63,210 bases of DNA, from assembly GCA_013297885.1 (NCBI GenBank), contig JAAFIR010000032.1:1-63210 (forward strand), read 5' to 3'. This document shows positions 14,749 through 50,405 of the stretch, piece after piece. Source of the stretch: Leptospirales bacterium (GTDB lineage Bacteria > Spirochaetota > Leptospiria > Leptospirales > Leptospiraceae). Position 1 is the first letter of the stretch; each line of letters begins with the position of its first letter. The notes under the pieces are model-generated. The model worked only from the letters and a program-made list of their open reading frames with translations. It ran no database searches and was not told the DNA's origin. Both the position numbers and the translations under genes were made by a program.

Positions 14749-14842
14749 GCGATTCGTTGTAAGCAACGACCGAGCTTTTCGCTACTTCTGAATCCTCGGC
14801 TTAAAACCCGAGGCTATTCAGAAACGCTTCAATCTCTATCGC
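14749..14842 (+). repeat. Three-box palindromic repeat, copy 3
   Basis: The outer stem is GCGAT (14749-14753) with ATCGC (14838-14842), a compensatory change from GCGAA/TTCGC. Arm 1 is a short CGTTG-taag-CAACG hairpin. The middle box is CCGAGCTTTTCGC. Arm 2 is CCTCGG with CCGAGG inside TTCTGAAT/ATTCAGAA. The third box is TTCAATCTCTATCGC. Flanking AAAGTTT (14740-14746) and AAACTTT (14861-14867) can add a further outer helix. It lies upstream of lysS. Confidence 0.78.
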
Positions 14843-14865
14843 ACGCTTCGCTGAATTGAAAAACT

Positions 14866-15003
14866 TTATTTCAAATCTTGAACTAATGTTTCTCTTCCAC
14901 CCTTATATTCAATATAATATTTGAAAATACAAAAAGTGTCGTCTTTAATTTTATATTCTCCTTTCTTATGCAAAATAAGATTTGAAATTACTTCTTTTAA
15001 ATT
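14866..15003 (-). pseudogene. Decayed gene remnant, unrecognised 45-codon tail
   Basis: In the otherwise empty stretch between lysS and the macro-domain remnant, the minus strand holds a protein-like tail. It ends '..CIFKYYIEYKGGRETLVQ..' and stops with TAA at 14866-14868. Upstream in the same frame TAG (15004-15006) and two TAA codons interrupt it, and no ribosome-binding site or start is present. I read it as the 3' end of a dead gene. It matches nothing I recognise. It sits next to another clear pseudogene. Confidence 0.4.
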
Positions 15004-15146
15004 CTATCTTTTTTATGATGAAACTTAGAAATAAATTTTTATTTTAAATCTATCTAATCTTCCATTTAATGAGATAGTTTTTTTCTGATGTCAGTTGTTA
15101 AAGAAAATTACAGCTTAGAAAAAAAAGTCGATTAGGAATTGCTAAT

Positions 15147-15610
15147 TTACTTAAACTGGATAATTCGCACTTCCATTTGAAAATCTAATTTTCCAATTTC
15201 ATTTTTCATGATTTCCAAAACTTTTTCTTTTTTAAATCCACCAGTTCCTGCTCCAATTAGCGGAAGAGCGATTCTTAAAAAATTATTTTTTGAAGCTAAT
15301 TCAATTTCATTAAAAGTTGAATGTTGAATTGACTTTTTAGTAGCAGTCCAAAAAAAATTTATTCCTGCAACATGAATTATGCTTTTAAAATTTAAATTTC
15401 CAACATTTGTTAGAACCACTTCACTTTTTGATTAAATTCCTTTTTTTGAAAGCTCAATAAATGGTTTAAACCCAGCTCTTTTTTAAATAGCACCTGAAAC
15501 TCCTTGAGGTAATAAAAGCTACCACAAGGAATAAAATTTCGATTCCAAGGATTTAAAATTATTTCCACATCTTGATCTAAAAGATTTCCTTATATAATTT
15601 TAAAATTCAT
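15147..15610 (-). pseudogene. Macro-domain (ADP-ribose-binding) protein, degraded
   Basis: The 3' part is open for 90 codons (15147-15419) and shows macro-domain motifs: 'SIIHVAGINFFW' and 'ALPLIGAGTGGF'. Translating further upstream recovers the missing N-terminus in pieces. 'DVEIILNPWNRNFIP' lies in one frame from a possible ATG at 15610. 'LLLPQGVSGAI' and 'KRAGFKPFIELSKKGI' lie in another. One frameshift near 15525 and in-frame stops at 15590-15592, 15519-15521, 15483-15485 and 15432-15434 break the gene. The family binds or hydrolyses ADP-ribose derivatives. A GTG at 15419 could start the 3' piece, but that product would lack the ligand-binding N-terminal strand and loop, so I call the whole a pseudogene. 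Confidence 0.85.
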
Positions 15611-15715
15611 AACAGTTTAATTTTCCCTTAAAATAAAAATTCTTCATCACAAATCACAATTCAAAATTCCATAATTATCAATTTCAAAAACAAGGCTTTC
15701 CAAAAATTTGGAATT

Positions 15716-17212
15716 ATGATTAAATTATCAAGCATAAATAAATCACATGGACAACAAGTTCTATTTGATGATTTACATTTCGCTATGAATAAAGGCGAAA
15801 AAATTGGATTGGTTGGAAGAAACGGACATGGAAAGTCCACACTAATTCAAATGATTCTTGGAAAACAAGAAACAGATTCTGGCACAATTATCATTCCCAA
15901 AAATTATAAAATTGGACATTTGGAACAACATTTAAAATTCACTAAGCCAACTGTTTTAGAAGAATGTGCACTTGGGCTCCCTGATGGCGAAGAATATGAA
16001 ACTTGGAAAGTAGAACAAATTTTATTTGGACTTGGTTTTAAAGAAAAAGATATGGATCGAAATCCAAATGAATTTTCTGGTGGATACCAAATCAGAATGA
16101 ATCTCGCAAAACTACTAGTATCCGCTCCAGACCTTTTGATGTTAGATGAGCCAAATAATTATTTGGATATTGTTACCATTCGTTGGCTAGAAGAATTTTT
16201 ACGTGAATGGGAGGGTGAAATTATTTTAATCACACATGATAGAAGTTTTATGGATGCTGTTGTATCGCATACAATTGCAATTCATCGTCAAAAAGCAATT
16301 AAGACAGAAGGTGACACAGAAAAACTTTATAATTATATCAACCAAACTGAAGAGATTTACGAAAAGACAAGACAGAACGAAGCAAAAAAAAGAAAACAAG
16401 AAGAAGTGTTTATTGAACGTTTTAAAGCCAAAGCAAGTTTTGCAAGCCGTGCACAGTCTAGGGTCAAAAAATTAGAAAAACAAGGTGAGATGAAAGCACT
16501 TGAAAAAATTGATGACTTGGAACTTTATTTTAACTCAGCTGATTTTTCTGCATCTGTGATGATGTCAACTGAAGAAATCAGTTTTTCATATTCAGAAAAT
16601 TCTCCAAAGTTAATTGATAAGTTTTCGATTGTTGTTGGAAAGCGTGATAGAATTTGTATCATCGGAAAAAATGGAAAAGGTAAATCCACACTTTTAAAAT
16701 TAATGGCCGGAGAATTACAAGCAACAGAAGGTCGCATCACAAAACATCCAAGTTTAAAAGAAGGATATTTTGGTCAGACAAATAAAATTCAGCTCAACGA
16801 AAACAATACAATTGTAGAAGAAATTCGTTCTGCTGATGAATCTTGTAATGATGGAATTGCACGAAACATTGCAGGTGGTTTGATGTTTAGTGGAGATTCA
16901 GCTCTAAAAAAAATCAAAGTGCTTTCAGGTGGTGAAAAAAGCCGTGTGCTACTTGGAAAAATTTTAGTCACTCCATGTAATTTATTATTTTTAGATGAGC
17001 CAACAAATCATTTGGACATGCAATCTTGTGACTCGCTAATTGAAGCAATTGATAATTTTGAAGGCTCAGTTGTGATGGTTACACATAATGAAATGCATAT
17101 TCGTGCAGTTGCCACAAAACTAGTTGTATTTGATTATGACGAAATCAAAATTTATGAAGGAACATATGACGAGTTCCTCCAAGATATTGGTTGGTCTGAT
17201 GAAGAGAAATGA
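15716..17212 (+). CDS. ABC-F family ATPase
   Basis: A soluble protein with two ABC domains and no membrane segment, of the ribosome-associated ABC-F class. Domain 1 has Walker A 'GRNGHGKST' at 34-42, signature '[15 protein letters not shown]' and Walker B '[12 protein letters not shown]'. A charged linker (about 215-265) precedes domain 2, with Walker A 'GKNGKGKST', signature '[15 protein letters not shown]' and '[12 protein letters not shown]'. At 498 residues it is shorter than EttA and lacks a long C-terminal coiled coil, so it is nearer the Uup/YbiT side. Both Glu switch residues are present. The first signature is divergent (FSGGY rather than LSGGQ). Confidence 0.88.
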
Positions 17213-17231
17213 TTTTTAGCACAAATATCGG

Positions 17232-17347
17232 GCGAATTTTTTTTGTAGTGAATGGTCGCGACCATTCACTACAAAAAAAACCGTGCTTTCCTCTCTTGTC
17301 AAAATTTTTTATTCAAAAAATTTTGACACCTAGTCAATCACTTTCGC
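17232..17347 (+). repeat. Three-box palindromic repeat, copy 4 (best-formed)
   Basis: The outer stem is GCGAA (17232-17236) with TTCGC (17343-17347). Arm 1 (17237-17280) is a perfect 44-base palindrome: eight T, GTAGTGAATGGTCG, its complement, eight A. The middle box is AACCGTGCTTTCCTCTCTTG. Arm 2 is TGTCAAAATTTTTT with AAAAAATTTTGACA. The third box is GTCAATCACTTTCGC. It follows the ABC-F stop by about 20 bases, so it could also end transcription. The rest of the gap to tilS holds only a weak hairpin near 17391-17417. Confidence 0.85.
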
Positions 17348-17465
17348 TTGGCTGCTAAAATTGAAAAATTTTTCTCTACAAACTTCCCCCTCTCTGTTGC
17401 TCAGCAATGGAGAAGGCTACTCTGTAAAATTTATCAATATTAATTAAGTTGGGATGAGGTAAGAG

Positions 17466-18659
17466 GTGAAACAATTTTTTGAAAAAATACTTTTAGAACT
17501 AGATTCTGAATTTTTAAAAAAAAACCAATTGATTCTTTCTTATTCTGGCGGAGCTGATTCTAGTTTACTTTTGGAATTTTTAAAATATTTGTACCAAGAA
17601 AAAAAAATTTTAAAACCCATTTTATTTCATCTAAATCATAAACTTAGAAATAACCAAACTGAAATTTTAGGAATCAAAAAAATTTTAGAAGATTCAGGAT
17701 TTCATTTTATTTACAAAGAAAAAAATATATTTAAACTTTCCAAAAAAATAAAAAAATCCCTAGAAGAAACAGGAAGAATTTTTAGATACCATGAACTAAA
17801 AAAAATCCAAAAAAAATCGAATGGGATTATTTTAACAGCTCACCAACTAGATGATTATTTAGAAACATCTTTGATTCATTTAATTCGTGGTGCTGGAGAG
17901 TCAGCATTTAAAAATTTACCAATTTATGAAAATGGAATTTTAAGACCATTTGTAAAAATTCCCAAAGATAAAATTTTAGAATTACTTAATGAAAATCAAA
18001 TTCCTTATTTTGAAGACGAGTCCAATACTTCAGAAGAATATTTAAGAAATCGAATCCGAAAAAAAATCATTCCAATTTTAAAAGAAGAAAAATTAAACAT
18101 AAAAAAGCTTTATGAAAATTTTCACGAAAAACCAATTTTTGAAAGTTTTGAGAAATCGGTGCCAAGTTTTTTAAAACTGAATTTAGATAATTTTGATTTT
18201 AAAGATTTAAAAACTGTTCTAGATATTTATCTAAAAAATTTGGGACTTCATCCCATTAAAAAAAATTTATTTTTAAAAATAAAAAATCTCTTAGAAAAAG
18301 AAGAAGCAATCCATTTGGAAAACTCCGAAGTGTTTTTTTGGAAATCAAAAACTTCAGAATTATTTCTAATTCCCAAAAATTCTCCACTTTTGAAAGAAGT
18401 AGAACATGATGGAGAAAATTTTATCTGGAATAAAAACCCTATTCCACTTGCTGAAAATGAAATTCTTGGTTTTTATGAAAAAGGTTTAAAAATAAAAATT
18501 AGAAACCAGACCAAAGAAATTTCTGAAATTCTTAGAGAAAACCAAATCCCAAGAATATTAAGAGAAAAAATTCCGATAATTAAAAAAGATGGAAAAGTGA
18601 TTTCTATCTTAGTTGATCTTTTTGATAAAAAATTAAAACGTGTAAATGGAGATTTATGA
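17466..18659 (+). CDS. tilS: tRNA(Ile)-lysidine synthase
   Basis: An ATP-pyrophosphatase that converts C34 of the AUA-decoding tRNA(Ile) to lysidine. The PP-loop 'SYSGGADSS' is at 25-33; 'HLNHKLRNNQ' and 'LTAHQLDDYLET' follow as in the family, and 'FEDESNTSEEYLRNRIR' is the tRNA/substrate motif. The C-terminal TilS domain is short and Lys-rich. The start is GTG with GAGG six bases upstream. It overlaps engB by four bases (ATGA). Confidence 0.92.
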   Translation: MKQFFEKILLELDSEFLKKNQLILSYSGGADSSLLLEFLKYLYQEKKILKPILFHLNHKLRNNQTEILGIKKILEDSGFHFIYKEKNIFKLSKKIKKSLEETGRIFRYHELKKIQKKSNGIILTAHQLDDYLETSLIHLIRGAGESAFKNLPIYENGILRPFVKIPKDKILELLNENQIPYFEDESNTSEEYLRNRIRKKIIPILKEEKLNIKKLYENFHEKPIFESFEKSVPSFLKLNLDNFDFKDLKTVLDIYLKNLGLHPIKKNLFLKIKNLLEKEEAIHLENSEVFFWKSKTSELFLIPKNSPLLKEVEHDGENFIWNKNPIPLAENEILGFYEKGLKIKIRNQTKEISEILRENQIPRILREKIPIIKKDGKVISILVDLFDKKLKRVNGDL

Positions 18660-19237
18660 GTAAAGACAATTTAACAGTTGAGTTTCATTCTTCTGTTGCA
18701 GATATTTCAAAATTTCCAAGAAACAAAATGCCTCAGTTTGCTTTTGCAGGCAGATCCAATGCAGGAAAATCTAGTTTAATCAACGCAGTGACAAACCATT
18801 CCAAGTTAGCATTTGTATCAGCAACTCCCGGAAAAACAAGACTTGTAAATTTATTTTTGTTGAACAAAAACTCTTTTTTGGTAGATTTACCGGGTTTTGG
18901 TTATGCAAAAGCATCTAACCAAGTTCGAGATGAAATAATACTTTTAGTGAATGATTATTTGAATGATGCTAGAGAACTTAAAATTTTATTTTTACTCTGT
19001 GATTCAAAAAGATCTGTTCCTGAAGATGAATTAAATATGATTGAAACCTGTTATGACAAAAAAATCAAACCAGTTTTAATCAGAACCAAAGTTGATAAAC
19101 TAAACCAAAAAGAAAAATTTATTTTGAATGATGAAAAAAAAAGGTTAGAGTTAGAATTTAGAAATATAAATATAATTCTTGCATCTACCAAAACCAAAGA
19201 AGGAATTTCAGAAATTAAAAAAATGATTCTTAAATAA
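18656..19237 (+). CDS. engB: Ribosome biogenesis GTPase EngB (YsxC)
   Basis: A small TRAFAC GTPase needed for large-subunit assembly. G1 is 'GRSNAGKSS' at 32-40, G2 includes 'TPGKTR' near 57-62, G3 'DLPGFGYAK' near 77-85 and G4 'RTKVDKLNQ'. Length (193) is typical. It is coupled to tilS by an ATGA overlap and ends ten bases before the convergent regulator gene. Confidence 0.95.
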   Translation: MSKDNLTVEFHSSVADISKFPRNKMPQFAFAGRSNAGKSSLINAVTNHSKLAFVSATPGKTRLVNLFLLNKNSFLVDLPGFGYAKASNQVRDEIILLVNDYLNDARELKILFLLCDSKRSVPEDELNMIETCYDKKIKPVLIRTKVDKLNQKEKFILNDEKKRLELEFRNINIILASTKTKEGISEIKKMILK

Positions 19238-19247
19238 AATACAGATT

Positions 19248-20552
19248 TTATCCTTTAGTATCCTTCATATATGGATGATCATTAATCATTTCAAAATATT
19301 CATCATTAAAAATTTCAATTGTATTTTGAGTTATATTATAATAATTTAAAATTGCTTCCATAACATCTATTTCTTTTTGAATTAAGGAAATTTTAGTTAG
19401 ACGTTTTGCTAATAATTCAGAAATTCGTGTTACTCTATCCATATCTGTAGTTATTGCAACTTCATCTTTATTAAAATTTTGAAATAAAACTACTTCAATA
19501 AATTGTTTAGGCATTTTCCAAATTTCAAATGCTTTTTTTCCTATTTCAATAGAGTCATAACCAATTTCATCACGTTCCAAATCGTATAAAGATTTTACAC
19601 CATATTCATAAAGTTTTAAAATTTTTTGATATTTGTCTACAAAATTTAAAGCAAGAATATTCATTCCGATTTTTTTCATCAATGATATAATAAAAATATC
19701 TGGCTCTAATTTTTTTAAATTTAATGGTCCTAAAATATCATGAGCAATTAAAGAAGATAAAACAGGAATTTCTCTTAAATGTTTTACAAAAATTTCAGCT
19801 TTTAAAGGATTTGTTAAAGTTTTGTTGTACTGATCGATAACTAATCGTTTAGCTTCCTTAATACCCATTACAGAAATTGCATCTTTTAAATTACGAATCG
19901 TTCCAGACCTACCGTAAAATGCAGAATTTGCAGATCTAATAATTGAACTAGAAAAAGAAATATCTGGACTAATAATTTTTTCTAGTTCTGCAATTCCATT
20001 TTTTGGATCTTCCACATCAAAACTAATCACATGTGTAAACACTGATGGTAAATTTGGAAGTCTGATTTGATTCAAATCAATTTTATCAACTTCTTTATCA
20101 AGATGTGTAAGGATATCTTTTCGATTAAATAGAACTGCAAGTTTTCTGATTAAATTTTCATCATCAAATGGTTTAACAACATATGAATTTACTCCAAGTA
20201 AAATTACTTCTTTTACTAAATGTCCTTCAGCATGACCAGTAATAAAAATAATTTTTAAATTTGGATAAATTTTTTTAATTTCTTTAATTGTTTGAAGACC
20301 ATTCATTTTTGGCATCTCATGGTCAATTGAAATTAAATCTGGGAGATTGTGCATTTGTTGTAATTTTTCTAAAGCTTCTATACCATCACTGGCATCCCCG
20401 ATAACATTAAAACTAAGTCTTCCAAAAGTTCTTTTAATTGCATTTCGAAAAGTTAAACTATCTTCAACAACAAAAACATTGTATGGATCTTTATTGGATA
20501 ATTTTAGGCCAACAGGAAGTAAATCTGAGAGATTTTGCATGATCGATGTCAA
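19248..20552 (-). CDS. Response regulator receiver-HDOD domain protein
   Basis: A two-domain signalling protein of 434 residues. The receiver domain (about 24-145) has acidic residues Glu30-Asp31, phosphoacceptor Asp77 ('LISIDHEMPKMNG'), Thr105 and Lys127 ('SYVVKPFDD'). The HDOD domain (about 160-370) begins 'LPNLPSVFTHVIS' and contains 'SSIIRSANSAFYG' and 'DAISVMGIKEAKRLV', typical of HDOD proteins, which lack full HD catalysis. No histidine kinase is adjacent. The C-terminal 60 residues are helical and unassigned. Confidence 0.85.
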   Translation of the reverse strand: MTSIMQNLSDLLPVGLKLSNKDPYNVFVVEDSLTFRNAIKRTFGRLSFNVIGDASDGIEALEKLQQMHNLPDLISIDHEMPKMNGLQTIKEIKKIYPNLKIIFITGHAEGHLVKEVILLGVNSYVVKPFDDENLIRKLAVLFNRKDILTHLDKEVDKIDLNQIRLPNLPSVFTHVISFDVEDPKNGIAELEKIISPDISFSSSIIRSANSAFYGRSGTIRNLKDAISVMGIKEAKRLVIDQYNKTLTNPLKAEIFVKHLREIPVLSSLIAHDILGPLNLKKLEPDIFIISLMKKIGMNILALNFVDKYQKILKLYEYGVKSLYDLERDEIGYDSIEIGKKAFEIWKMPKQFIEVVLFQNFNKDEVAITTDMDRVTRISELLAKRLTKISLIQKEIDVMEAILNYYNITQNTIEIFNDEYFEMINDHPYMKDTKG

Positions 20553-20642
20553 TTTAAAATTATAAAAAATAATGCAAACAGTTTTATTAAGCTAAGATTT
20601 AATAAGTATTCTTGAGGAAATGATTCTAGTTAATTTTTATGG

Positions 20643-20864
20643 GCAAATTTTTCCCCAACCAAAGCTTTAGATATTCAAGCGAAAGCGATGAATGGCTTTA
20701 TTGTGGAGAATTAAAAATGAAAAATGTTAAATAAAAAAAATTACGAAAAATGAATTTTTAATTCTTAATTCTAAATTTTTTATAAAATTGGGAAAAACCG
20801 TGCTTTCCTCTCTTGTCAAAATTTTTTATACAAAAAATTTTGACACTGAGTCAATCACTTTTGC
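20643..20864 (+). repeat. Three-box palindromic repeat, copy 5 (long arm 1)
   Basis: The outer stem is GCAAA (20643-20647) with TTTGC (20860-20864), a compensatory G-to-A/C-to-T change from the usual pair. Arm 1 is closed by TTTTTCCCCAA (20648-20658) and TTGGGAAAAA (20788-20797) and encloses about 129 AT-rich bases with no convincing reading frame. The middle box is AACCGTGCTTTCCTCTCTTG, identical to copies 2 and 4. Arm 2 is TGTCAAAATTTTTT with AAAAAATTTTGACA. It fills most of the 340-base gap between two minus-strand genes. Confidence 0.75.
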
Positions 20865-20893
20865 TTAGTAAAAAAAAACTAATATAGATAACT

Positions 20894-22492
20894 TCAATTA
20901 CCTCTGATTACGATTCCATTATTTCCAATACCAAAACATTGGGTATCAGATGTACAAACAGCATTATTTAATGTTCCAGTAATTGAAGTTGAATGAGGTG
21001 CCCATGAAGATCCATTAGAAGTAAAAACTATGGTTCCATTAGATCCTGCAAAAACACAAGTTGAAGTTCCACTAATACAATTTCCATTTCGTTTGATTGA
21101 TAAATATTCTCCAAATTGAAGTTCGCTAAAGCTAACTCCACCGTTTGAAGTAATCCTACCATAATCATATAAAGTAAGTTTAGTATAATAACAATTATTT
21201 GTATTAGAACAAGCAATACCAGAAATTGAATCTTTTGTACCTGAATTGACTACAAACCAATTTGAGCCATCTAAAGTTTTAAGAATCATTCCATTGGTAC
21301 CACCAACAAAACAATTATTCGAATCAATACAAGTGATTTGATTTAATGAATTTGTCCCAGCACTAGAAGTTTGTGCTAACCAATTTAAACCTCCATCAAT
21401 TGTTTTTAGAATTGTACCGTTTGTTCCAGAAACATAACAAGTATTTAAATTTAAACAAACAATAGACAAAAGATTATTTGTTGTTGTTGAGGTTTGTGGG
21501 TTCCATGTAGAACCATTAAAAGTCTTAAGTATAGTTCCATTTTTACCAACAGATAAACAAGTATTTATATTCACACAAGAAATACTTCTAAGATCTAAAA
21601 CAACTCCAGAACTTTGAGCAGACCAATTCGTTCCTGAATTTGTAGTTTTTAAAACAGTTCCTGTATCTCCAACTGCATAACAAGTATTTGGGTCTGGACA
21701 AGAAATACCAAATAGATCTTTTAATGATCCTGAATTGAGCGAGTTATAACTTAACGATTCAGATATCTTAATCCCAAATGTTCCTGAATTAAATCCAGAA
21801 TAATTAATAACTTGAATAAAAATATTTTCTGTTGCAGTAGAAATGATTTTTTTATGATTCAGATAACCAGAATCAATATCGTAAAAAAGAACATTTCTAT
21901 TTGAATTAATTACAACAACAGCAACATCTGCAGTATAATTACCTGAACCACCAAATGAATCATCCCAGGATAGATAATACACTTTTCCACTTTTGAGCGA
22001 AGCGGAATAGTAATTTGCTTCAGAATTATTAATTGTAGTCCCAGAAATATAATTTGCATTCATTGTTAAAGGAATTAAGTTACTAACCTTAAAGTCTGTT
22101 TTACTAGAAGAAGTTTTTGTATCTACAGTTACTGTGATTGGCCCTGAAGTTGCACCTTCAGGAACTATAACCGTTAAAGAATCTGAAGAAGCTAGAGTAA
22201 CTGTTGCCAATGTTCCATTAAATTTAACAATATTGGAAGAAACTACTTTGGAAAAGTTTGAACCATTTATTTGAACATTTAAACCAACAACAGAAGAAGC
22301 TGGAGAGAAAGTATTTATATTTAGATTTGTATTCGTTATAGAAATAGGAATTGAACGTGTATTTAAAAAAAATAAAAATGAGTTTTGTAAATTATCCTCT
22401 CCTGATTTTCCTTTATTTGCAGAATTATTGTCTGTAGCTGAATTACAAAACAAAAATCCAACAATCAAAATTAGAACTAATATTTTTTTCAT
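20894..22492 (-). CDS. Lipoprotein with IPT/TIG domain and seven-repeat propeller
   Basis: A probable surface lipoprotein of 532 residues. A hydrophobic leader ends in a lipobox 'LFCN' (Cys16). An IPT/TIG domain spans about 48-135 ('FSPASSVVGLNVQINGSNFS'). A beta-rich PPC-like segment follows (about 140-250). From about 255 on, repeats of the Ycf48/BNR type appear ('GTVLKTTNSGTNW', 'GTILKTIDGGLNW'). Seven repeats each carry a cysteine pair spaced CX5C, or CX6C in one case, suggesting a seven-bladed propeller with one small disulfide per blade. Function is unknown; adhesion or complex assembly is possible. Confidence 0.8.
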   Translation of the reverse strand: MKKILVLILIVGFLFCNSATDNNSANKGKSGEDNLQNSFLFFLNTRSIPISITNTNLNINTFSPASSVVGLNVQINGSNFSKVVSSNIVKFNGTLATVTLASSDSLTVIVPEGATSGPITVTVDTKTSSSKTDFKVSNLIPLTMNANYISGTTINNSEANYYSASLKSGKVYYLSWDDSFGGSGNYTADVAVVVINSNRNVLFYDIDSGYLNHKKIISTATENIFIQVINYSGFNSGTFGIKISESLSYNSLNSGSLKDLFGISCPDPNTCYAVGDTGTVLKTTNSGTNWSAQSSGVVLDLRSISCVNINTCLSVGKNGTILKTFNGSTWNPQTSTTTNNLLSIVCLNLNTCYVSGTNGTILKTIDGGLNWLAQTSSAGTNSLNQITCIDSNNCFVGGTNGMILKTLDGSNWFVVNSGTKDSISGIACSNTNNCYYTKLTLYDYGRITSNGGVSFSELQFGEYLSIKRNGNCISGTSTCVFAGSNGTIVFTSNGSSWAPHSTSITGTLNNAVCTSDTQCFGIGNNGIVIRGN

Positions 22493-22548
22493 TCTTAAAC
22501 TTAAATCTTATTTCAAAAAAAATCAATCTTTTTTTTAAAAACTATTAT

Positions 22549-23085
22549 TTAATCCAATTCTTTTCCTTCAGTGTCGATTTCTTCAGTATACCCAAACATT
22601 TTTATGTCTTTTAATCTATCTACATAAAGCACACCGTCCAAATGGTCACATTCATGTTGATATACAATTGCTTTAAAACCATCAATTACTTCACTATGGA
22701 AAGTCCATTTTTCATCATACCATTCTAGCTTGATTTTGGAAGGTCTTTCTACAAAACCTCGCATTCCAGGAACTGAAAGACAACCTTCCCAATAACCCTC
22801 TTTTGGTTTTTCTAATGGAGTAATTACAGGATTAATTAAAATATGTTCTCTAACTTGTTCTTCATTTGGGTAACGTGGATTTTCATCAACACCAACAACC
22901 ACTAATTTTTTTAAAACTCCAATTTGAGGTGCCGCTAGTCCAACTCCATTTAAATGTTTCATCGTATCAAACATATCTCGAATTAGTTTTTTGAATTCTT
23001 TTGTTCGAACTTCATCTTCTTCAATTTCAACTGATTTTTTTCGGAGAAGTGGGTCTCCAATTCTTAAAACTTTTCTTGCTGCCAT
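22549..23085 (-). CDS. def: Peptide deformylase
   Basis: An iron/zinc hydrolase removing the formyl group from nascent proteins. From the chosen start the three family motifs are '[11 protein letters not shown]' at 47-57, 'EGCLSVPG' at 100-107 (metal ligand Cys102) and 'QHECDHLDG' at 143-151 (His144, Glu145, His148). The ATG at 23085 is chosen because GGAG (23093-23096) precedes it by seven bases and the protein then begins '[14 protein letters not shown]'. The open frame extends 14 codons further, but that extension is Cys-rich and unlike the family. It is divergent from the coiled-coil gene. Confidence 0.95.
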
Positions 23086-23244
23086 AATACATCTCCAATA
23101 AAAAAAACATTGACATTTAGAATTCATTTAACATGTTTAAGAAAAACTTAGTAAATTACACAATTTCTAAAAACTATCTTGGTTTATTTTTTACATAAGT
23201 TTTTTATTTTACTAATTAGTCAATTTAAGTTTTGGTAGGTCTTT

Positions 23245-23547: not shown

Positions 23548-23551
23548 TCAA

Positions 23552-35860: not shown

Positions 35861-35956
35861 TAGAATTATTTTTTTGAAAAATAGAAAAATCTAACCCAAT
35901 TAAAAATAACAAAGAATTATAGTTTACAAAATAGTATCAATACGTTCATTAAAAAA

Positions 35957-38484: not shown

Positions 38485-38511
38485 ATTCTTGATTTTAAGA
38501 ATGGATAACAT

Positions 38512-40305: not shown

Positions 40306-40429
40306 TTCTTGAAGTGTAGATTCTATTTCTTAAAATCGAATTTATACCTTGATTAAATTGATTTTTATAATTATAGATTTAAAAATTTTATTTTAAAATC
40401 ATAGTATAAGTTATTTACGGAGAATTTTT

Positions 40430-41515: not shown

Positions 41516-42420
41516 TTGATGAAAAAAATATTTCTGAAGAAGAAGTTTCAATTGCTAGAAAAACACATTTAGCTTCTTTTCTTGTTTATCCTCTATGGAT
41601 CATTTTACTTTCTAAAGGAGTTGCATTTTCATTTTCAATTGCCATGCTTATTATGATTTTAATTCCTGTTCTAGTTTTAATCACAAAAGGAAGAAAATCT
41701 GGATTTGTTGCTATTCATGCTAAAGAAGCAATTTTTTTAAACTTTATGGGAGCTCTACTCGGATTTGGTGTAGATAAAATCTGGCCAGATGCTGATGCTT
41801 TTAGTAGGATGCTTCAAGTTCTTTCTTTTACTGGACTTAGTGTTTACCATATTGGTGCAAGTATTGCAGGTGCAGTTAAATCTTCTTATAAAAAATTAAT
41901 TTCTTATCCTCTTAGTTTTTTTAATAAAAATTTAAAACCTTCTGATAAATTTGAAGATCAAATGAAAGAGTTAAAAACTCTTCAAAATTTGGACAAAGTA
42001 ACAGCTTCTGTTCTTGCAGATACTTTAAAACTAGGTAAACAAAAAGTCACTGAATTAGATGAATTAAATTCTCAAATAAAAGAAGAATCTATGAAAAGAA
42101 AAATTTTAGATATAAGAGAAATTATAATTAAAATTTTTGAAAATTTTAAAAAAGATCCTGATGATGTAAAAGTATCGAGACAATTTCTGAATTATTATTT
42201 AGACTCTACTGTTAAAATTTTAAAAAAATATATCCAGCTTTCAGACCAAAAAGTAATTTCAACTGAACTAACTGAATCTTTAAAAAAAGTAGAATCAGTT
42301 TTAGACTCATTAAAACTAGCTTACCAAAATCATTATGAAAAACTAATTCAAAATGATATTATGGATTTAGATGCTGAAGTAAAAGTTTTAGAGCAAACAA
42401 TGAAGTTAGAAGGATTATGA
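41512..42420 (+). CDS. Membrane protein with XpaC-like C-terminal domain
   Basis: A 302-residue protein. The N-terminal 130 residues hold three or four transmembrane helices in a DUF4870-like arrangement ('SGFVAIHAKEAIFLN'). The C-terminal helical half (about 190-302) matches XpaC-type proteins ('RQFLNYYLDSTVKILKKY', 'DLDAEVKVLEQTMKLEGL'), the family found beside TelA. The usual XpaC N-terminus appears replaced by this membrane module. It overlaps both neighbours by four bases. Confidence 0.78.
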   Translation: MIDEKNISEEEVSIARKTHLASFLVYPLWIILLSKGVAFSFSIAMLIMILIPVLVLITKGRKSGFVAIHAKEAIFLNFMGALLGFGVDKIWPDADAFSRMLQVLSFTGLSVYHIGASIAGAVKSSYKKLISYPLSFFNKNLKPSDKFEDQMKELKTLQNLDKVTASVLADTLKLGKQKVTELDELNSQIKEESMKRKILDIREIIIKIFENFKKDPDDVKVSRQFLNYYLDSTVKILKKYIQLSDQKVISTELTESLKKVESVLDSLKLAYQNHYEKLIQNDIMDLDAEVKVLEQTMKLEGL

Positions 42421-43885
42421 GTTTAGATTTAATTTATTTTCAAATTTTAGAATTAAAAAAAATCTTAATTGAACCAATCCTATTTTACAAAACAAATGAG
42501 ATTAATATTTCTGATTTTGAAAAAAGAATTTTAAATGAAAATTATATTTTAATTTCAGAATTAGTTAGAATTTCTGCTTATCAATTTGTAAATGATTTTG
42601 AAAATACAAACTCTAATTTAGAATTAATATCCAGTTTAATCTCAAAACTAGATTCAAAAGAATTTAGTAAAAATAATTTAATTTCAGAAATTGAAAATTA
42701 TATCAAAAATTTTCCTGATGGAAAAAAAAATCTTATATTAGAAAAAATTGACACTCCATATATTTTAAAATTAATTCAATTTTATGATGAAAAAAATTTT
42801 ACCAATCAGCTTTATATTGTATCCAATTATTTATTTCAAATATTAAATTTGATTTATAAATCAGATGGTGGTATCTCAGATTATGAAAAAAAGTTTTTAG
42901 ATGCTTATGGGAAATCTCTTCACCAATTTCATGAAACTCAAATTGAAAATAAATCTGATTATATAAATTTAAATTCAGTGTTTAATGATTTTTTTGGATC
43001 AGTTTCTGAAAAAAAACCAACTGAATCAAAAGAAGAAAAAAAATCTGAAGGAAATGTTTCAGAAACAAAACAAGAAACTTATAATTTGGATGATTTATTA
43101 AAAGAATTAAATGAACTAGTTGGTTTAAATTCAGTAAAAGACGAAATCAAAAATTTAATTAATATTTTAAAAGTAGAAAAACTTAGAAAAGAAAAAAATC
43201 TTCCTGTACCTCAGAGAAGTTTACATACAGTCTTTACTGGTAATCCAGGAACAGGAAAAACTACAATAGCAAGACTAATTGCAAAAATTTTTCAAGCACT
43301 TGGTATTTTAGAAAAAGGTCATTTAATAGAAACAGATAGGTCAGGGTTAGTTGCTGGATATGTTGGGCAAACCTCAAATAAAACTTTAGAAATTTGTAAA
43401 AAAGCATTAGGTGGAGTTTTATTTATAGATGAAGCTTATTCACTTTCAGAAGGTGGAGAAAATGACTTTGGAAAAGAGGCAATTAACACTCTTTTAAAAT
43501 ACATGGAAGATAATCGTGCTAATTTTATCATTATAGTTGCAGGATACACGGGAAATATGAAAGAATTTATTCACAAAAATCCAGGACTAGAATCTAGGTT
43601 TAATAAGTATATTGAATTTCCAGATTATACGCCAAATGAAATGGAAAAAATATTTTTAAATTTAATTTCAAAATCAAAACTTAAAATCACAGCACAAGGA
43701 ATAGAAAAAGTTTTAGAAGTTTTAATAACCAATTACGAAAATCGAAATGAAAAATTTGGTAATGGAAGATTTGTGAGAAATTTATTTGAAAAATTTATTC
43801 AACACAAGCAAATAGAATTGTGCAGATAGAAAAACTAGATGAAGAAATTTTATGTACAATTACTGCAGAAGATGTTTTAGTTTAA
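42417..43885 (+). pseudogene. CbbX/SpoVK-type AAA+ ATPase with frameshifted C-terminus
   Basis: A AAA+ protein with a helical N-terminal region (about 1-225) and a single ATPase domain: 'VGLNSVKDEIKNL', Walker A 'TGNPGTGKTT' at 274-283, 'VAGYVGQTSNKT', Walker B 'VLFIDEAYSLSEGG' and an arginine finger 'GLESRFNKYIEF'. The frame stops at 43829 after 470 codons. The expected family ending 'QIEKLDEEILCTITAEDVL' is encoded immediately after, in the frame starting at 43820 and ending at TAA 43883-43885. One base appears to be missing near 43820. The ATPase core is intact, so a slightly truncated protein may still work; a sequencing error is equally possible. Confidence 0.82.
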
Positions 43886-44874
43886 AATGAATAGCTGAAT
43901 CTTATCTCAATAACTTGATTTCCTATTGTTTGAAAATTTTGATTTTTTATAATATAATTATTCTCATTTATTCCGAAAGGATTTATTTTGAGACTTGTTT
44001 TTATCCCAGATTTTGAAATATGAGAATAGACTTCATAAGAATGAAATAAATATAATAAACCAAGTCCACCAGCTGCAATTTGTACATTTCGAATATGATT
44101 ATTATACAAAGTATTTTCATTTAAATTGCTACCAATATAAACATTATTATTGATAACTACATAATCAACATCATCTGCTACAGCTTTTGATGCTTTGTTA
44201 TATTCCGTAGCAGCACCAGCAATAAAACCCAAAAATAAAAAACCCATGACAGAACCTTTGATTTTTTTTCCATTTTGAAATTGCATTAAACCCGGAATAA
44301 AATACCTGAGAAAAGAAAAACTGAATTTTGGTTTAGCTTCAAAACTAACTTCATCAATCTCGAATTCTTTTAATTGGACTTTTCCCAAAACAGAATCTTT
44401 GATTATTAAATCAACAAGAGTTACTGAAATTAATTCACCAAAATAATATTTTTCCCCAGATTTAATTTTAACTTCTGCGGAAGGTCTCAGTACAAATAAA
44501 ATTTTATCATCTTTATTCGTTTTTTTTATCTTAAATCTATCTAATTTTGAAATAGGAATTTCTTCTTTATCAATCAAACCATCCCCTTTAGCTAGGATGA
44601 TTTTATTTTTATCAACTTGATGGATAAAATCATTACAATTTTCAGTCCATTCAGAGGATTTCTTAACACATGAAGGAATCCCTAAATAACCAAGTTGTAA
44701 TTTTTTTATATCAGTTTTTAAGATTTTCATTTTTTCTTTTTGAACTTGAAATATAATGTTAGTTTCTTGCTCAGAAAGATATTTACCTATTAATACAGAG
44801 TCATTTTTTAAAATAATTAAATCAGAAAAAATTGGCAAATTAATGAGACAGAATAAGATTATGTATTTAAACAT
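43882..44874 (-). CDS. Hypothetical exported/membrane protein
   Basis: A 330-residue protein with a signal peptide (1-17) and a beta-rich N-terminal half, including 'LIILKNDSVLIGKYLSEQE', which resembles a segment in the gene at 46523. Residues about 195-225 contain 'FSFLRYFIPGLMQFQNGKK' and a hydrophobic 'MGFLFLGFIAGAATEYNKA', like the DUF5683-type small-membrane module. Function unknown. Its stop overlaps the displaced end of the AAA+ gene by four bases on the opposite strand. Confidence 0.7.
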   Translation of the reverse strand: MFKYIILFCLINLPIFSDLIILKNDSVLIGKYLSEQETNIIFQVQKEKMKILKTDIKKLQLGYLGIPSCVKKSSEWTENCNDFIHQVDKNKIILAKGDGLIDKEEIPISKLDRFKIKKTNKDDKILFVLRPSAEVKIKSGEKYYFGELISVTLVDLIIKDSVLGKVQLKEFEIDEVSFEAKPKFSFSFLRYFIPGLMQFQNGKKIKGSVMGFLFLGFIAGAATEYNKASKAVADDVDYVVINNNVYIGSNLNENTLYNNHIRNVQIAAGGLGLLYLFHSYEVYSHISKSGIKTSLKINPFGINENNYIIKNQNFQTIGNQVIEIRFSYSF

Positions 44875-44995
44875 TTTAGAAAATAGTTTCCATTATTATA
44901 TACTAATATTTCTCCATATTAATAATTTCGGAAATAAAAATTTGTTTACATAGATAATTAAAACAATTATTCCGATAATAAGTAAATAGATAATT

Positions 44996-46522
44996 ATGGT
45001 TAATAAAGAGGCTCCAAAAAAAACTAAGTCTTTAAGACTTCAAATAGGAATACTATATTCTTTTCTTGCATTAGTCAATATTTTATTTTTTTCTGTAATG
45101 ATTTTTGAAAATCAAACTGAATTATTGGTAAAAAACTTTCAATACCAATCTGATAATTTTGTGACTTCTGTTATGTCGGATTTAAGCACTAAATCTCTAG
45201 AAAAGGAAAATGAATCTAGTTTTAAAACTATTAAAGAAAGACTTTTATATAATGAAATTACAAACTTCACAATTTTTGATAAAGAAGGAAATATTTGGTA
45301 TAAAGAAACAGGAATTATTTCAAATGAAATCCTTAAAGATGATATTTTAAAAAAATCAAAAGAAATCTCCGATAAAAACTCAGTTTTTTCAAATAAATAT
45401 AAATTAGAATTAAATAAAGAAGATTTTGCTATTCGTTTTTTTATTCCACTCAAAGCTGAAATAGATGGGATTGATATATTTCTTTATACTGAACTTAGTA
45501 TTAAAAGTATGCGAGAAAGGTTAACCAAATTATACTACCAAATTGCAATCGCTTTCCTTTGGGGATTAGTTTCTCATATTTTATTTGGGATTTATATTTA
45601 TAAAGTAATTTTTTCTCGTGTTGGAATTTTAAAAGATGCAACTGATAAAATGGGTCAAGGAAAACTCGATTCTCGAGCAGAATGGAAGTTTTCACGAGAT
45701 GATGAATTGGATTCATTAGGAACAGCATTTAATGATATGGCTGGAAAAATTCAAGAAACCATCACTACAATTACAAAATTAAATGATGAAATTAGTAATG
45801 AATTAAAAATCGGAAGAGAAGTCCAAGAATTATTTTTACCACCAAATAAAAAATTAAAAGATTTAAAAGTAGCTACGTCTTATCGTCCTATGCGAGAAGT
45901 GAGTGGTGATATTTATCATTTTTACAAATTCCCAAGTGGAAAGATGAGTAAAAAAGATTATTATGGAATTTTTTTTGCTGATGCTTCAGGACATGGGGTT
46001 TCAGCTGCATTAGTGACTACAGTCACATTATTAAGTTTAGAAAATATTATTTCTAAATCAATTCATCCAGGTTATGTAATTCAAAAGCTAGGGGATGTAA
46101 TTGGAACTAGATTTGTTTCTTCTTTTTTTGCCACTGCGGTGTTTTTTTTAATTTCTGACGATGGAGAAATATTATGTAGTAACGCAGGTCATAATGCTCC
46201 AATATGTTTTAGACCTTCAACAGAAGAGTTTTTTTATTTTAAAAGTGTTGGACCTCCTCTTGGAATGGTGGATGAATTTGATTATAAAGTTAGTAAATTT
46301 AAGGCTTTACCCGGTGATAGATTATTAATTTATTCAGATGGTTTAGTAGAAAGCCCTGGAAAAAATGAAGAACAGTTTTCAGAAGAAAGAGTAATTGATC
46401 TAATCAAAAAAAATCTACACACTCCCAATAAAGAATTGTTAAATATATTAGCTACTGAATTAGATAATTTTGCAATTGAATATAGAGATGATGTTTCTAT
46501 GATTTTACTTGAGATACCTTAG
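44996..46522 (+). CDS. HAMP-SpoIIE PP2C phosphatase, membrane sensor
   Basis: A 508-residue sensor phosphatase. TM1 (about 15-36), a periplasmic domain (37-178), TM2 (about 182-202), HAMP (203-260) and a PP2C domain (about 275-508). The motifs are canonical: 'EVSGDIYHFYKF', 'FFADASGHGVSAALV', 'CSNAGHNAPICF', 'IYSDGLVESPGK' and 'YRDDVSMILLEI'. It differs from the NGDAMGKS subfamily elsewhere in the window. The following gene starts on the base after its stop. Confidence 0.92.
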   Translation: MVNKEAPKKTKSLRLQIGILYSFLALVNILFFSVMIFENQTELLVKNFQYQSDNFVTSVMSDLSTKSLEKENESSFKTIKERLLYNEITNFTIFDKEGNIWYKETGIISNEILKDDILKKSKEISDKNSVFSNKYKLELNKEDFAIRFFIPLKAEIDGIDIFLYTELSIKSMRERLTKLYYQIAIAFLWGLVSHILFGIYIYKVIFSRVGILKDATDKMGQGKLDSRAEWKFSRDDELDSLGTAFNDMAGKIQETITTITKLNDEISNELKIGREVQELFLPPNKKLKDLKVATSYRPMREVSGDIYHFYKFPSGKMSKKDYYGIFFADASGHGVSAALVTTVTLLSLENIISKSIHPGYVIQKLGDVIGTRFVSSFFATAVFFLISDDGEILCSNAGHNAPICFRPSTEEFFYFKSVGPPLGMVDEFDYKVSKFKALPGDRLLIYSDGLVESPGKNEEQFSEERVIDLIKKNLHTPNKELLNILATELDNFAIEYRDDVSMILLEIP

Positions 46523-48058
46523 ATGCAAAAAAAAATTTTATTAGTTTCTTTTGTATTGATTTTAATATTCTTTTTTGTTAGTTCCAAATCAATTGTAAAT
46601 GTTAAAATTCAAGAACTTCGTTTTCAATTAACCAAAGAACAACTATTAAACTTTGAATTATCTTCAAAAGTTTTAAAAGAAAAAATTCGTCAAATGCGAA
46701 TGGATAAAGATGATTATTCCAAAGAAATTAAAATGAATATTTTGGAATCAAATGTTATGAATGCTCAACTTGGCTCTTCAAATACTGAACTAAGCTCAGC
46801 AGAAAAATTTGGTTTAGCAATAGTGAATTTTGTAAGAATTGTTTCAGGAAAGTCAAGACTTACCTTAGAAGAAGATCAAAAAGATATGATGAAAATTCAA
46901 TTTACATTTTATTTAGAAAGGACAAGAAAATTTGCTTCAGCAGTTAAGAAATATGATGAGTTAGAAAAAAGTATTTCAAATAAAGATAGTAACGAAATGG
47001 GATTTGTAATGCTTCATAATGGATTTGCAACTGCTATGACTGGCGATATAAATTTAGCAATTTCTAAACTTAGAAAAACTGAAGATAGTTTTTCTGGAAA
47101 CCATTTTGCTGATAACGCTAGAATTTTAATTGCTGTTCTTTTAGAAGGTAACAAAAAAAACCTTGATATTGAAACTAAATTTTCTGATTCAACTGAAAAA
47201 GCAAATGCATATTATGAACTTGGACAATATAAAGAAACATTAAAAGAATTAGATAAAATTGAAAATAGAACATCAGATCAAAATTATCTTCATGCCAGAA
47301 GTTTAGAAGAAGTTGGACAAACAAGTAAAGCAATTTCTGAATATTTGACTTTGGTTGAAAATAAAACAGTTAGCCAAGATGTAGCAAAAAAAGCTAACCG
47401 CCGTTTATTAATGATTGGAAGCATTTATGAAAAAAATAAAGATCTAACAGATTATTCAAAATCAAATGCAGAAAAACTAGGTGATAAAGATGTTTTAGAA
47501 AAAATTGATGAAGGTTCAAAATTAATTTTAGATTCTTTAATTGTAGAAAAATTAAGTAAATCGCAGTCAGCTGGAAATGATAAAGAAGCATTAAAAGAAT
47601 TTGAAGAATTAAAAAAAGAATTAGAAATAATTAAAGTTACAGAAAAAGAAGAAAGAAAAGAAACAACAAGTAAAATAGAAAAAGAAGTTGCTGAAATAAG
47701 AAAAGAATTAGCTACCCCTAAAGAAGAATTTGATGAACCAATCAATTTAAAAATGAAAATCTTATTTAATGATGGAAGAGAACTTGTTGGAAAAGAATTA
47801 ATTTTTGTTGGCGATAAAATGAAAATTGTTTCAGGTTTATTTTCATCTGAAATACCTCAAACCCAAATTAGAGAAATTGGATTAAATAAAAATTTAAAAT
47901 TAAAAACTCCCCCAATTAGAATTGAATTAAAAAATAATAAAATTATTAATGCTTATTTTCTTAAAAAAGAAGATGATTCTTTTAAAATCAAATTATCAAA
48001 TGATGAAAAAAATTTTGAAATAGAAGAAATTAAAGCTATGAGAGTTTTAAGTAAATAA
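46523..48058 (+). CDS. Membrane-anchored TPR-like protein
   Basis: A 511-residue protein with an N-terminal transmembrane anchor (about 4-22), a long helical region with degenerate TPR repeats (about 125-320, 'KANAYYELGQYKETLKELDK'), a Glu/Lys coiled coil (about 345-400) and a small beta domain at the C-terminus ('NDGRELVGKELIFVGDKMK'). It begins directly after the HAMP-SpoIIE phosphatase stop and is probably its partner. It ends flush against the convergent OmpA gene. Confidence 0.72.
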   Translation: MQKKILLVSFVLILIFFFVSSKSIVNVKIQELRFQLTKEQLLNFELSSKVLKEKIRQMRMDKDDYSKEIKMNILESNVMNAQLGSSNTELSSAEKFGLAIVNFVRIVSGKSRLTLEEDQKDMMKIQFTFYLERTRKFASAVKKYDELEKSISNKDSNEMGFVMLHNGFATAMTGDINLAISKLRKTEDSFSGNHFADNARILIAVLLEGNKKNLDIETKFSDSTEKANAYYELGQYKETLKELDKIENRTSDQNYLHARSLEEVGQTSKAISEYLTLVENKTVSQDVAKKANRRLLMIGSIYEKNKDLTDYSKSNAEKLGDKDVLEKIDEGSKLILDSLIVEKLSKSQSAGNDKEALKEFEELKKELEIIKVTEKEERKETTSKIEKEVAEIRKELATPKEEFDEPINLKMKILFNDGRELVGKELIFVGDKMKIVSGLFSSEIPQTQIREIGLNKNLKLKTPPIRIELKNNKIINAYFLKKEDDSFKIKLSNDEKNFEIEEIKAMRVLSK

Positions 48059-49888
48059 TTAATTTTTTAAAATTTTAAAAACAACTCTTCTATTTTTTGC
48101 TCTACTGTCAGCAGACTGATTATCAACAATTGGAGACTCTTCACCTTTACCTTCTACTTTTAATCTTTCTCGGTTTATTCCAAATTTTTTAATGATATAC
48201 TCTGCTACAGAAGTAGCTCTTGATAACGATAAAGCAATATTATCTGCATTTTTTCCAGTATTATCAGTATGACCTTCTATTACTACTTCCAAATTTTTAT
48301 TTGTTTTCATAATTTCGCCAAGCCTGTCAAGCTCTGCTTCTGATTCTTTTTTAATATCAGATCGGTTAGATTCAAAAAATAAATTATTTATTACAACTTC
48401 TGAACCTTTTTCTAATTTAGATAAAGTCATATCAATTTCAAATTCTTGGTATTCTTTTGATTTTTCAATTAAATCTTTGCTTTGGTGATAAGGTAAATAA
48501 CCTTCTTTTTTAACATGAAATTCATAATTATCCCCATAAGGCAAAACAATAGAATAGTCTCCAGTATTTGGATCTGATACAGCTGAACCTTTATTTTCTT
48601 TTGTGGTTATAGAACCATATTGAACTTCAGCAGAAATTGGTTCACCTTTATTTGATTTAATTTTTCCTTTAACAATAATCACAGCTTCAGGTTTTACTTC
48701 ATTTGGTAAAAAAGTCATTTCTAATTGACCTGATCTACTGATATAAGCCCAGTTACCAGATGCAGGAATTGAAAAATAATTAACACCTTTTAAGTTTGAT
48801 GAAAATTCAATTGGCTTAGTCCACTCAGTCCAACCTTCTCCAATTCTCTGAGTTAAATAAACGTTTAAACCTTTTTTTGTATAAGTAGAAAAATACAATG
48901 TTCTATTATCTGAAGCAAGAAATGGAGCCATATCTTCAACATCAGTATTTATAAAAGATAAATTTGTTCCAAGTGGAAAAATTCCTTGTTCATTTTCTTT
49001 ACTAACATATAAATCGAGTTTGCCTTTTGAATCAGTATGTTTTGCAGAATAAATTAATACTTTTCCATTTGATGAAAGTGTACACCCTCCAAAAACTTGC
49101 ATTTCAGGGTTCTCTTCACTTCGATATAAATTATAAAATTCAGGGAATGGAATTGTTGCAGGATAACTCCAACCTTTTTCTTGTTTAAAAGTTTTATATA
49201 ATGGAACTTTATTTCTAATTTTTTCTTTTTCACGTTTATATCTTTCTCTAGCTATTAAAAGTCTTCCATCTTCGTCACTTTTATTTTTTGAACTTTTTTG
49301 AATTTCTAAAACTTCTTGAGCATATTTAAATTTTGCTTCTTTTTCTGCATTTTCATCATCAAAACTTCCAAAAACAAATAAAACATTTCCGCCAGCTAAG
49401 GCTTCAATAACTGCAGATGGTGCTTTATTATTTAGAGGTGGTTCCATAACTTGCCCTTTTTTCCAAAGACCATATTTATCCATTTCAGAGTACCAAATTT
49501 TTTGTGTTGTGCCTAATCCAGTTTCAAGGGAAACAGTCCAATACAAAACTCTACCATCTGGTGTGACTTTTGGATTAAAAGATGTCATGCCTAAATAAAC
49601 ATATTTTGGGATTTTTTTCAAAGTCCATTTTTCTAAATTTGTTTCAGTTAAAAATGGTGCAATCTCATATCTTTGTGGAAGACAAGAATCTTCATCTAAA
49701 ATACAAAGAACTCGAATTTTTTTTCCGCTTAACTCTGATAATTCTTTTGATAGTTCTGAATATTTTATAGGAATTGTATTATTATCTGTTTCAATGTACA
49801 TTCCTGCACCCATTAAATTCCCGACTAAAACTTGCTCTTTTGCAAATGAAAAAAGGCTTAAACTTATTAAAAAAATTAAAACTTTCAT
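48059..49888 (-). CDS. OmpA-family protein with PD40 propeller repeats
   Basis: A 609-residue outer-membrane-associated protein. Signal peptide 1-16; PD40/WD40-like beta-propeller repeats across about 90-400 ('FNPKVTPDGRVLYW', 'APFLASDNRTLYFSTY'); a carboxypeptidase-regulatory-like beta sandwich (about 405-485, 'GKIKSNKGEPISAEVQYG'); and an OmpA C-terminal peptidoglycan-binding domain (about 495-609) with 'LFFESNRSDIKKESEAELDR' and 'VIEGHTDNTGKNADNIALSL'. It would link a periplasmic or surface propeller to the cell wall. Confidence 0.9.
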   Translation of the reverse strand: MKVLIFLISLSLFSFAKEQVLVGNLMGAGMYIETDNNTIPIKYSELSKELSELSGKKIRVLCILDEDSCLPQRYEIAPFLTETNLEKWTLKKIPKYVYLGMTSFNPKVTPDGRVLYWTVSLETGLGTTQKIWYSEMDKYGLWKKGQVMEPPLNNKAPSAVIEALAGGNVLFVFGSFDDENAEKEAKFKYAQEVLEIQKSSKNKSDEDGRLLIARERYKREKEKIRNKVPLYKTFKQEKGWSYPATIPFPEFYNLYRSEENPEMQVFGGCTLSSNGKVLIYSAKHTDSKGKLDLYVSKENEQGIFPLGTNLSFINTDVEDMAPFLASDNRTLYFSTYTKKGLNVYLTQRIGEGWTEWTKPIEFSSNLKGVNYFSIPASGNWAYISRSGQLEMTFLPNEVKPEAVIIVKGKIKSNKGEPISAEVQYGSITTKENKGSAVSDPNTGDYSIVLPYGDNYEFHVKKEGYLPYHQSKDLIEKSKEYQEFEIDMTLSKLEKGSEVVINNLFFESNRSDIKKESEAELDRLGEIMKTNKNLEVVIEGHTDNTGKNADNIALSLSRATSVAEYIIKKFGINRERLKVEGKGEESPIVDNQSADSRAKNRRVVFKILKN

Positions 49889-49978
49889 GCTTTCTAATCT
49901 TATCGGATTTTAAATTAATCTCTTGAGGGTAATGACTTCTTAGATTTTAATAAATGAAGCTTTTTTTAAAGTTTATGG

Positions 49979-50068
49979 GCGAATTTTTGCTACGCAAAAA
50001 CCGGGCTTTCAGTTCGGTAAAAAAAATGTTTAAACATTTTTTTGACCTCTGCTTCAATCCCTTTTCGC
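49979..50068 (+). repeat. Three-box palindromic repeat, copy 6 (short)
   Basis: The outer stem is GCGAA (49979-49983) with TTCGC (50064-50068). Arm 1 is minimal: TTTTTGC-ta-cGCAAAAA. The middle box is ACCGGGCTTTC. Arm 2 is AAAAAAATGTTTAAACATTTTTTT closed by GGT/ACC. The third box is TTCAATCCCTTTTCGC. A conserved 3' box GTATTGAGAAATTTTT follows. This copy and copy 7 share the 600-base gap 49889-50488 in opposite orientation. Confidence 0.8.
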
Positions 50069-50197
50069 ACAGTATTGAGAAATTTTTAATGAAAATTTTT
50101 TTTATAAAAATAATAAAAAGAAAACAGGAAATAATATAAGAGTTTAAAAAAGCCATTTTTTATCTATATATATCTAACTTTTATCAATTGAATTTAA

Positions 50198-50405
50198 GCG
50201 AGAGGGATTGTAGCGTTTCTGAATTACCTCGGGTTTTAACCCGAGGATTCAGAAGTAGCGAAAAGCCCGATTTTTCCATTTCACAATTTGAAATTTAAAA
50301 TGAAGGATGAAAAATTTAATTCTGTATTCGTTTTTTTATTTATTTGTCTTTATTTTAATTTTTTGATCCTTCTTTTGGTCTTCCAAGAAGTTGGAAAAAC
50401 TCGCC
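50198..50405 (-). repeat. Three-box palindromic repeat, copy 7 (long arm 1)
   Basis: It reads on the minus strand. The outer stem is GCGAG with CTCGC (plus-strand 50198-50202 and 50400-50404), another compensatory pair. Arm 1 is closed by TTTTTCCA and TGGAAAAA (50271-50278, 50392-50399) around about 113 bases. The middle box is TCGGGCTTTTCGC. Arm 2 is CCTCGGGTT with AACCCGAGG inside TTCTGAAT/ATTCAGAA. The third box is ACAATCCCTCTCGC. It is inverted relative to copy 6. Confidence 0.78.

Follow-up and report, generated by a model that had tools for sequence, protein, structure and literature searches.

What kind of element keeps both arms of a stem paired while their letters change from copy to copy? 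This question is raised by a dispersed repeat in contig JAAFIR010000032.1 of a Leptospirales bacterium (assembly GCA_013297885.1), whose 63,210 nucleotides we refer to as the window. A first-pass annotation, made from the letters of the window, had pointed to double changes in the outer stem of this repeat and explained them by a folded form that is selected or copied through. We find that the fold constrains the sequence and that all of its helices co-vary. The repeat is an enlarged, dispersed and probably mobile form of a known orphan family, Flavo-1 (Rfam RF01705), which was described as an RNA by Weinberg et al. in 2010 and has been listed since then as a small RNA of unknown function (PMC2864571). 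We favor the view, to which we give an even chance, that this extended Flavo-1 element is a non-autonomous, mobile, intergenic DNA element that is recognized as a folded strand by an enzyme encoded elsewhere.

On the strand that carries the motif, the unit reads GG-P1-P2-P3-P1′ and forms a three-way junction, which is recovered by folding single copies in several cases. P1 is the closing stem (GGCGAA ... TTCGC), and its arms lie 80-236 bases apart with two other hairpins between them. P2 is a hypervariable hairpin stacked directly on P1. It is nearly perfect, with a mean of 12.9 Watson-Crick base pairs and isolated mismatches at 28 of 1,708 positions, and its sequence is unrelated between copies. 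P3 is a long arm, nnG-C-YY-NNN-pq ... q'p'-NNC-RR-T-Cnn, with conserved unpaired letters and another hairpin on top. In the flank profile of the motif strand, TTTGG stands before the closing stem and T(A/T)GT after it, and the element ends GGGCG... and ...CGC are found in Spirochaetota and Bacteroidota.

The window holds nine complete copies where ten had been counted, and no tenth complete copy was found in it (Table 1). The closing stem GCGAA/TTCGC is indeed present in six of them (copies 1, 2, 4, 6, 8 and 9), and the double changes reported for copies 3, 5 and 7 are real, with every pair in its place. The genome-wide sample consisted of contiguous stretches, the window included, that make up about 1.66 Mb (36%) of a genome of 4.62 Mb. 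A scan that required features of P3 and nothing of P1 returned 146 confident copies, against 2 in a reversed control. Control matches were likewise low for the other strict scans, and a loose scan with 158 control hits among 413 was discarded. The 5′ arm of P1 was placed by the G-run and the foot of P2 only, with pairing left unused. All five P1 positions are paired in 108 of 129 copies, whereas shuffling the 3′ arms between copies 2,000 times gave 36 on average and 50 at most. Genome-wide, 88 P1 cells are changed on both sides and 16 on one side, far from the parity expected if the two arms changed singly as often as together. The paired forms include GCAAA/TTTGC (13), GCGAT/ATCGC (11), GCGTT/AACGC (10), GAGTT/AACTC (7), GCGAG/CTCGC (4) and several rarer ones.

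For formal counting we used 80 of the 96 distinct cores, a subset that excludes 8 copies in which less than three of the P1 positions pair. In this set 97.8% of the closing-stem cells are paired, compared with 76.2% after shuffling. Double-changed cells number 66 against 13.5 ± 2.8 in shuffles; a further 2 cells are one-sided standard pairs, and 9 are unpaired. The covariation score of the closing stem is 0.523, while shuffles reach 0.145 ± 0.018 and slid registers with at least three pairs score 0.03-0.16. The inner (P3) helices also co-vary, and the score over all helices is 0.572 against 0.165 ± 0.011 in shuffles, though detection demanded five of seven Watson-Crick pairs in P3, so that the P3 figures, but not those of P1, arise partly by selection. 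Since double changes far exceed single ones and covariation stands well above the shuffles, a folded form is required. The proposal that this form is selected, or copied through, is thus supported.

The three double changes in the window had been called independent. This understated the variety, with seven further types in P1, and it overstated the independence, since the copies are mosaic. Because of this mosaicism the origins cannot be tallied individually, and only a minimum is given by the pair types beyond the commonest, seven in P1 and eighteen when all twelve pairs are taken together. Nested stems combine with little mutual dependence while each remains paired (z = 2.4 for P1 with P3a and z = 0.8 for P1 with YY/RR). 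The double changes therefore do not go back to a small set of multiplied variants, and clonal amplification of such a set was rejected as their whole cause, since closing-stem types combine with almost every P3a type. In the 115 pairs of copies whose P3 arms are 85-99% alike, P1 shows 56 both-sided and 16 one-sided differences and P3a shows 65 and 4, and the P2 hairpins of such copies resemble each other no more than those of random pairs do. Within the window, copies 4 and 5 have P3 arms that are 94-95% identical and P2 hairpins that are unrelated. Copy 3 shares 94% identity in P3 with a copy at locus L087 (GCGAA/TTCGC, GTG/CAC), from which it differs by a double change in each of P1 and P3a. 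Swapping of contiguous nested segments between copies would give the same both-sided pattern and leave the pairs unbroken.

It could be argued that pairing is not selected at all, and that hairpin-templated synthesis (template switching and quasipalindrome correction) together with gene conversion equalizes the arms, giving one-step double changes in an element that need have no function. The P2 hairpins, near-perfect yet unrelated, speak for this, as do the mostly both-sided differences between copies with similar P3 arms, and template switching during replication is a documented source of instantaneous compensatory changes (PMC8794818). Even so, we consider this explanation unlikely. It leaves unexplained the unpaired letters (GG, C, T and the CAATC-type loops) that are conserved from Spirochaetota to Bacteroidota, as well as the spread to hundreds of copies. 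In addition, the distance between the P1 arms, across two hairpins, is beyond the usual short range of such correction, and mismatches in P3a have long been tolerated in Chryseobacterium copies.

The link with Flavo-1 comes from the Rfam covariance model, which recognizes the P3 arm on the strand opposite to the motif. The model describes a single arm of 76 positions, starts inside P1 and leaves UAGCC unpaired. In the bacterium's own genome 75 matches are reported, most of them above the gathering score (best 61 bits, cut-off 42), and the loci L009, L016 and L022 also match above it. The copies in the window all stay under the cut-off (best 32 bits), including a sub-threshold match at 50192-50276 (+) that overlaps copy 7. 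Of 30 relatives, three from the genus have 1-3 weaker matches each, one from the family has 2 and the rest have none. Loci in Chryseobacterium and Pedobacter exceed the gathering score, with up to 71 bits in Chryseobacterium. The full three-way junction occurs in named genomes that include Mesonia, Flaviramulus, Foetidibacter, Treponema and termite-gut Spirochaetia, with the P1 pairs GCGTT/AACGC, GCGCA/TGCGC, GCGCC/GGCGC, GCGCG/CGCGC and GCACA/TGTGC. Bacteroidota and further Spirochaetota share this architecture, closed by different pairs. In Chryseobacterium the classical Flavo-1 is a second form, GGAGC...GGCTA, without a long P2. By extrapolation from 130-153 copies in the sample, the own genome holds about 350-430 copies, or about one per 11 kb. 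A metagenome-assembled genome (MAG) of a termite-gut spirochaete (G035, 2.5 Mb) has 208 exact pattern matches, and five other genomes have 2-9. At loci L272-L311 of this MAG, elements are chained with the short repeats ATGGGCGGCAGACC, GGGCGAGCAG...CGACCAGCC and CCCACGGGCTGACC, which are joined directly to the closing stem.

Stems in RNA usually leave wobble pairs as a trace of their evolution. In P1 we count 2 G.T and 5 A.C in about 600 cells, where A.C corresponds to G.T on the complementary strand. For comparison, the acceptor stems of this genome's tRNAs show 10 G.T in 126, and wobble in the repeat is about tenfold rarer. Over all helices G.T and A.C are about equal on the motif strand, with no clear strand preference; the distal P3 stem is an exception (18 G.T, 6 A.C). 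The scarcity of wobble intermediates, together with the both-sided differences, points to coupled copying or whole-segment exchange as well as to selection. Only 2 of 130 copies lie inside open reading frames, and the distribution over convergent, tandem and divergent gaps equals the background. A role as terminator was rejected, with 17.5% of the copies in convergent gaps against 18% in the background. The split between replication strands (29 to 21) is uninformative because the GC skew is weak.

These data bear on the reading implied by the Rfam class, in which the copies are transcribed, the RNA fold is selected and the double changes are ordinary compensatory evolution. The strong covariation, the purine-rich internal loops conserved on the Rfam strand and the Rfam scores here and in Chryseobacterium agree with it. 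So do the P1 mismatches, of which the five A.C are G.U on the Rfam strand, and the excess of G.T in distal P3. However, wobble is far rarer than in the tRNAs, and the two helix sets indicate opposite strands. The several hundred copies stand in both orientations with no fixed gene context, and orthologous sites may hold the element, lack it or hold it reversed. In the transcriptome of F. psychrophilum, Flavo-1 lies sense or antisense within transcripts and often in none (PMC9723704), so that its transcription there is not consistent. We therefore regard a structured RNA as improbable.

Orthologous sites were compared in Chryseobacterium. At one intergenic site surveyed in 30 genomes, the element is present in forward orientation in 10, another subfamily is forward in 3, the element is reversed in 2 (L329 and L339), and the remaining 15 have no recognizable element. 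At a second site two species have the element and a third lacks it. A third site shows 95-97% identity up to the left end of the element, after which the interior and the downstream gene differ (G031 compared with G114 and G062). At a fourth, a toxin-antitoxin-like pair, recognized by eye, occupies the place of the G031 element. As read from these sequences, the sites show turnover of the element, whatever its mechanism may be.

We suggest that a mobile, folded DNA element could account for these observations as follows. The element would move in trans, recognized as a single DNA strand or a cruciform. Its paired changes would come partly from coupled copying, i.e., hairpin-templated synthesis, and partly from exchange of whole nested segments between copies, and recognition of the fold would remove unpaired variants. 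More tentatively, and with clearly less confidence, we propose that Flavo-1 as a whole may be a mobile DNA element, working as a folded single-stranded three-way junction, and not an RNA, that in Spirochaetota and Bacteroidota a recombinase not yet described may move or exchange it, and that its stems may change by one-step coupled copying.

Several points weigh against a mobile DNA element. No moving enzyme was found, the tested candidates (RAYT/Y1 and integron integrase) being unsupported. Neither a target-site duplication nor a base-exact empty site was obtained; element-absent orthologous sites give no readable duplication because their flanks are too diverged. The Chryseobacterium species are 78-98% alike, so that loss, in-place inversion or local replacement could have occurred instead of transposition. 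Three copies, at L040 (near 1-300), L079 (near 374-607) and L047 (16585-16811), have P2 and P3 that are identical or nearly so. They sit in a larger repeat, over 230 bases long and with ATAGTTATGCA as its boundary on one side, and hence a clean recent transposition of the element alone is not demonstrated. Between tandem genes, the motif strand follows the direction of the genes in 46 of 67 cases (46 to 21), a bias not predicted by a neutral mobile element, and the wobble of distal P3 hints at a strand preference. Genus relatives were rejected as a source of empty sites, their proteins being too distant (61-79% identical), and a search of the own genome for joined flanks returned only weak matches and local tandem duplications.

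Could the element instead be an attC-like site at which a tyrosine recombinase exchanges gene cassettes? The third and fourth Chryseobacterium sites, where shared DNA gives way to differing interiors and genes or a toxin-antitoxin-like pair stands in place of the element, fit such exchange. In the own genome, the C-terminus of a tyrosine recombinase (last 59 codons, 97-98% identical) lies at two contig ends, C51:2-178 (L059, L388) and C20:30212-30385 (L385, L389), with the element 0.2-0.7 kb downstream in both. Beyond the recombinase end there is a toxin-antitoxin-like pair and a Flavo-1 element at C20, and the element alone at C51. Probably the complete gene is a repeat that collapsed in the assembly. 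We treat this proximity as a lead only; by chance it would arise in perhaps a few per cent of cases, as estimated from one copy per 11 kb. Yet no integron integrase (TIGR02249) exceeds the NCBIfam cut-off in four genomes (G000, G035, G031 and G114), although a full gene at the broken recombinase ends at contig edges could be missed. The core boxes GTTRRRY/RYYYAAC are absent from the element ends, and most copies in the window stand beside core genes (dnaE, ABC-F, tilS and a radical-SAM/TRAM protein), not cassettes. Overall, we hold a cassette site to be quite unlikely. Least probable is a repetitive extragenic palindromic (REP)-like element moved by a REP-associated tyrosine transposase (RAYT, Y1), for although the repeats are folded, intergenic and high in copy number and the single Y1 gene of the own genome lies 0.56 kb from a copy, that gene is flanked by different palindromes (CAGTGGGTC...GACCCACTG), a Flavobacterium Y1 gene by yet another (ATCCCTAACGGGAT), and the MAG with 208 pattern matches has no Y1 match.

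The Y1 gene and its palindromes lie at positions 1408-1830 and 1840-1960 of locus L104. The same palindromes are also found inside P2 of copies in L026, L049 and L087, as if the tips of P2 collect palindromes. Separately, the motif TGCATAACTAT occurs 21 times in the sample, compared with 1.7 for shuffled motifs. It is located at the ends of contigs and within two arrays (Table 1), and it appears to be the core of a further repeat or cassette array that breaks the assembly, including at the right end of the window. One of the arrays contains a DUF1564 gene, whose family occurs in Leptospira, and this gene speaks for a host in the Leptospiraceae.

Table 1. Copies of the repeat in the window, from the first base of the 5′ arm to the last base of the 3′ arm, and positions of the motif TGCATAACTAT
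Feature	Position	Strand	Closing stem	P3a	Remarks
Copy 1	8435-8575	+	GCGAA/TTCGC	AGG/CCT	Complete; inner pair TC/GA
Copy 2	11353-11489	-	GCGAA/TTCGC	GTG/CAC	Complete
Copy 3	14749-14842	+	GCGAT/ATCGC	GAG/CTC	Complete
Copy 4	17232-17347	+	GCGAA/TTCGC	GTG/CAC	Complete
Copy 5	20643-20864	+	GCAAA/TTTGC		Complete
Copy 6	49979-50068	+	GCGAA/TTCGC	GGG/CCC	Complete
Copy 7	50198-50404	-	GCGAG/CTCGC	GGG/CCC	Complete
Copy 8	57490-57735	+	GCGAA/TTCGC	AGG/CCT	Complete; very long P2 hairpin
Copy 9	62920-63089	+	GCGAA/TTCGC	GGG/CCC	Complete; adjoins contig end
Motif, window	63146	-			
Motif, own genome	C1:169, C5:942, C10:219, C30:214, C44:368				
Motif arrays	C23:33731-35226, C11:35079-36579				One array holds a DUF1564 gene (PF07600)

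If Flavo-1 is mobile DNA, its annotation is wrong in many genomes and covariation alone is insufficient as evidence for RNA. If this is true, genomes with hundreds of copies would be a natural experiment on whether paired change proceeds via two steps, template switching or exchange of nested segments. Genomes this rich in copies also limit where the enzyme has to be sought.

The element can be compared with several known systems. Like REP elements with their RAYTs, it is a short folded intergenic repeat in many copies, and the genes of RAYT subclass 2.6 of Bacteroidetes are described as having atypical folded structures on their flanks (PMC6006769). It differs in being a three-way junction without the GTAG/GGAG tetranucleotide at its foot, where Flavo-1 proper has UAGC. 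Miniature inverted-repeat transposable elements are likewise short, non-coding, dispersed and patchy among relatives, and have complementary ends; terminal inverted repeats are present here as 5-bp complementary ends in 108 of 129 copies. In contrast to such elements, the ends are only 5-6 bp long, the interior fold is conserved across phyla and a target-site duplication is not demonstrated. The attC sites of integrons act as folded single strands in which structure is conserved more than sequence. Our repeat resembles them in its folded form and in the precedence of structure over sequence, but it lacks the core boxes and has three arms where attC is a single hairpin. Compared with Flavo-1 as given in Rfam, the repeat described here adds a closing stem and a hypervariable second hairpin, is present in several hundred copies and behaves like mobile DNA.

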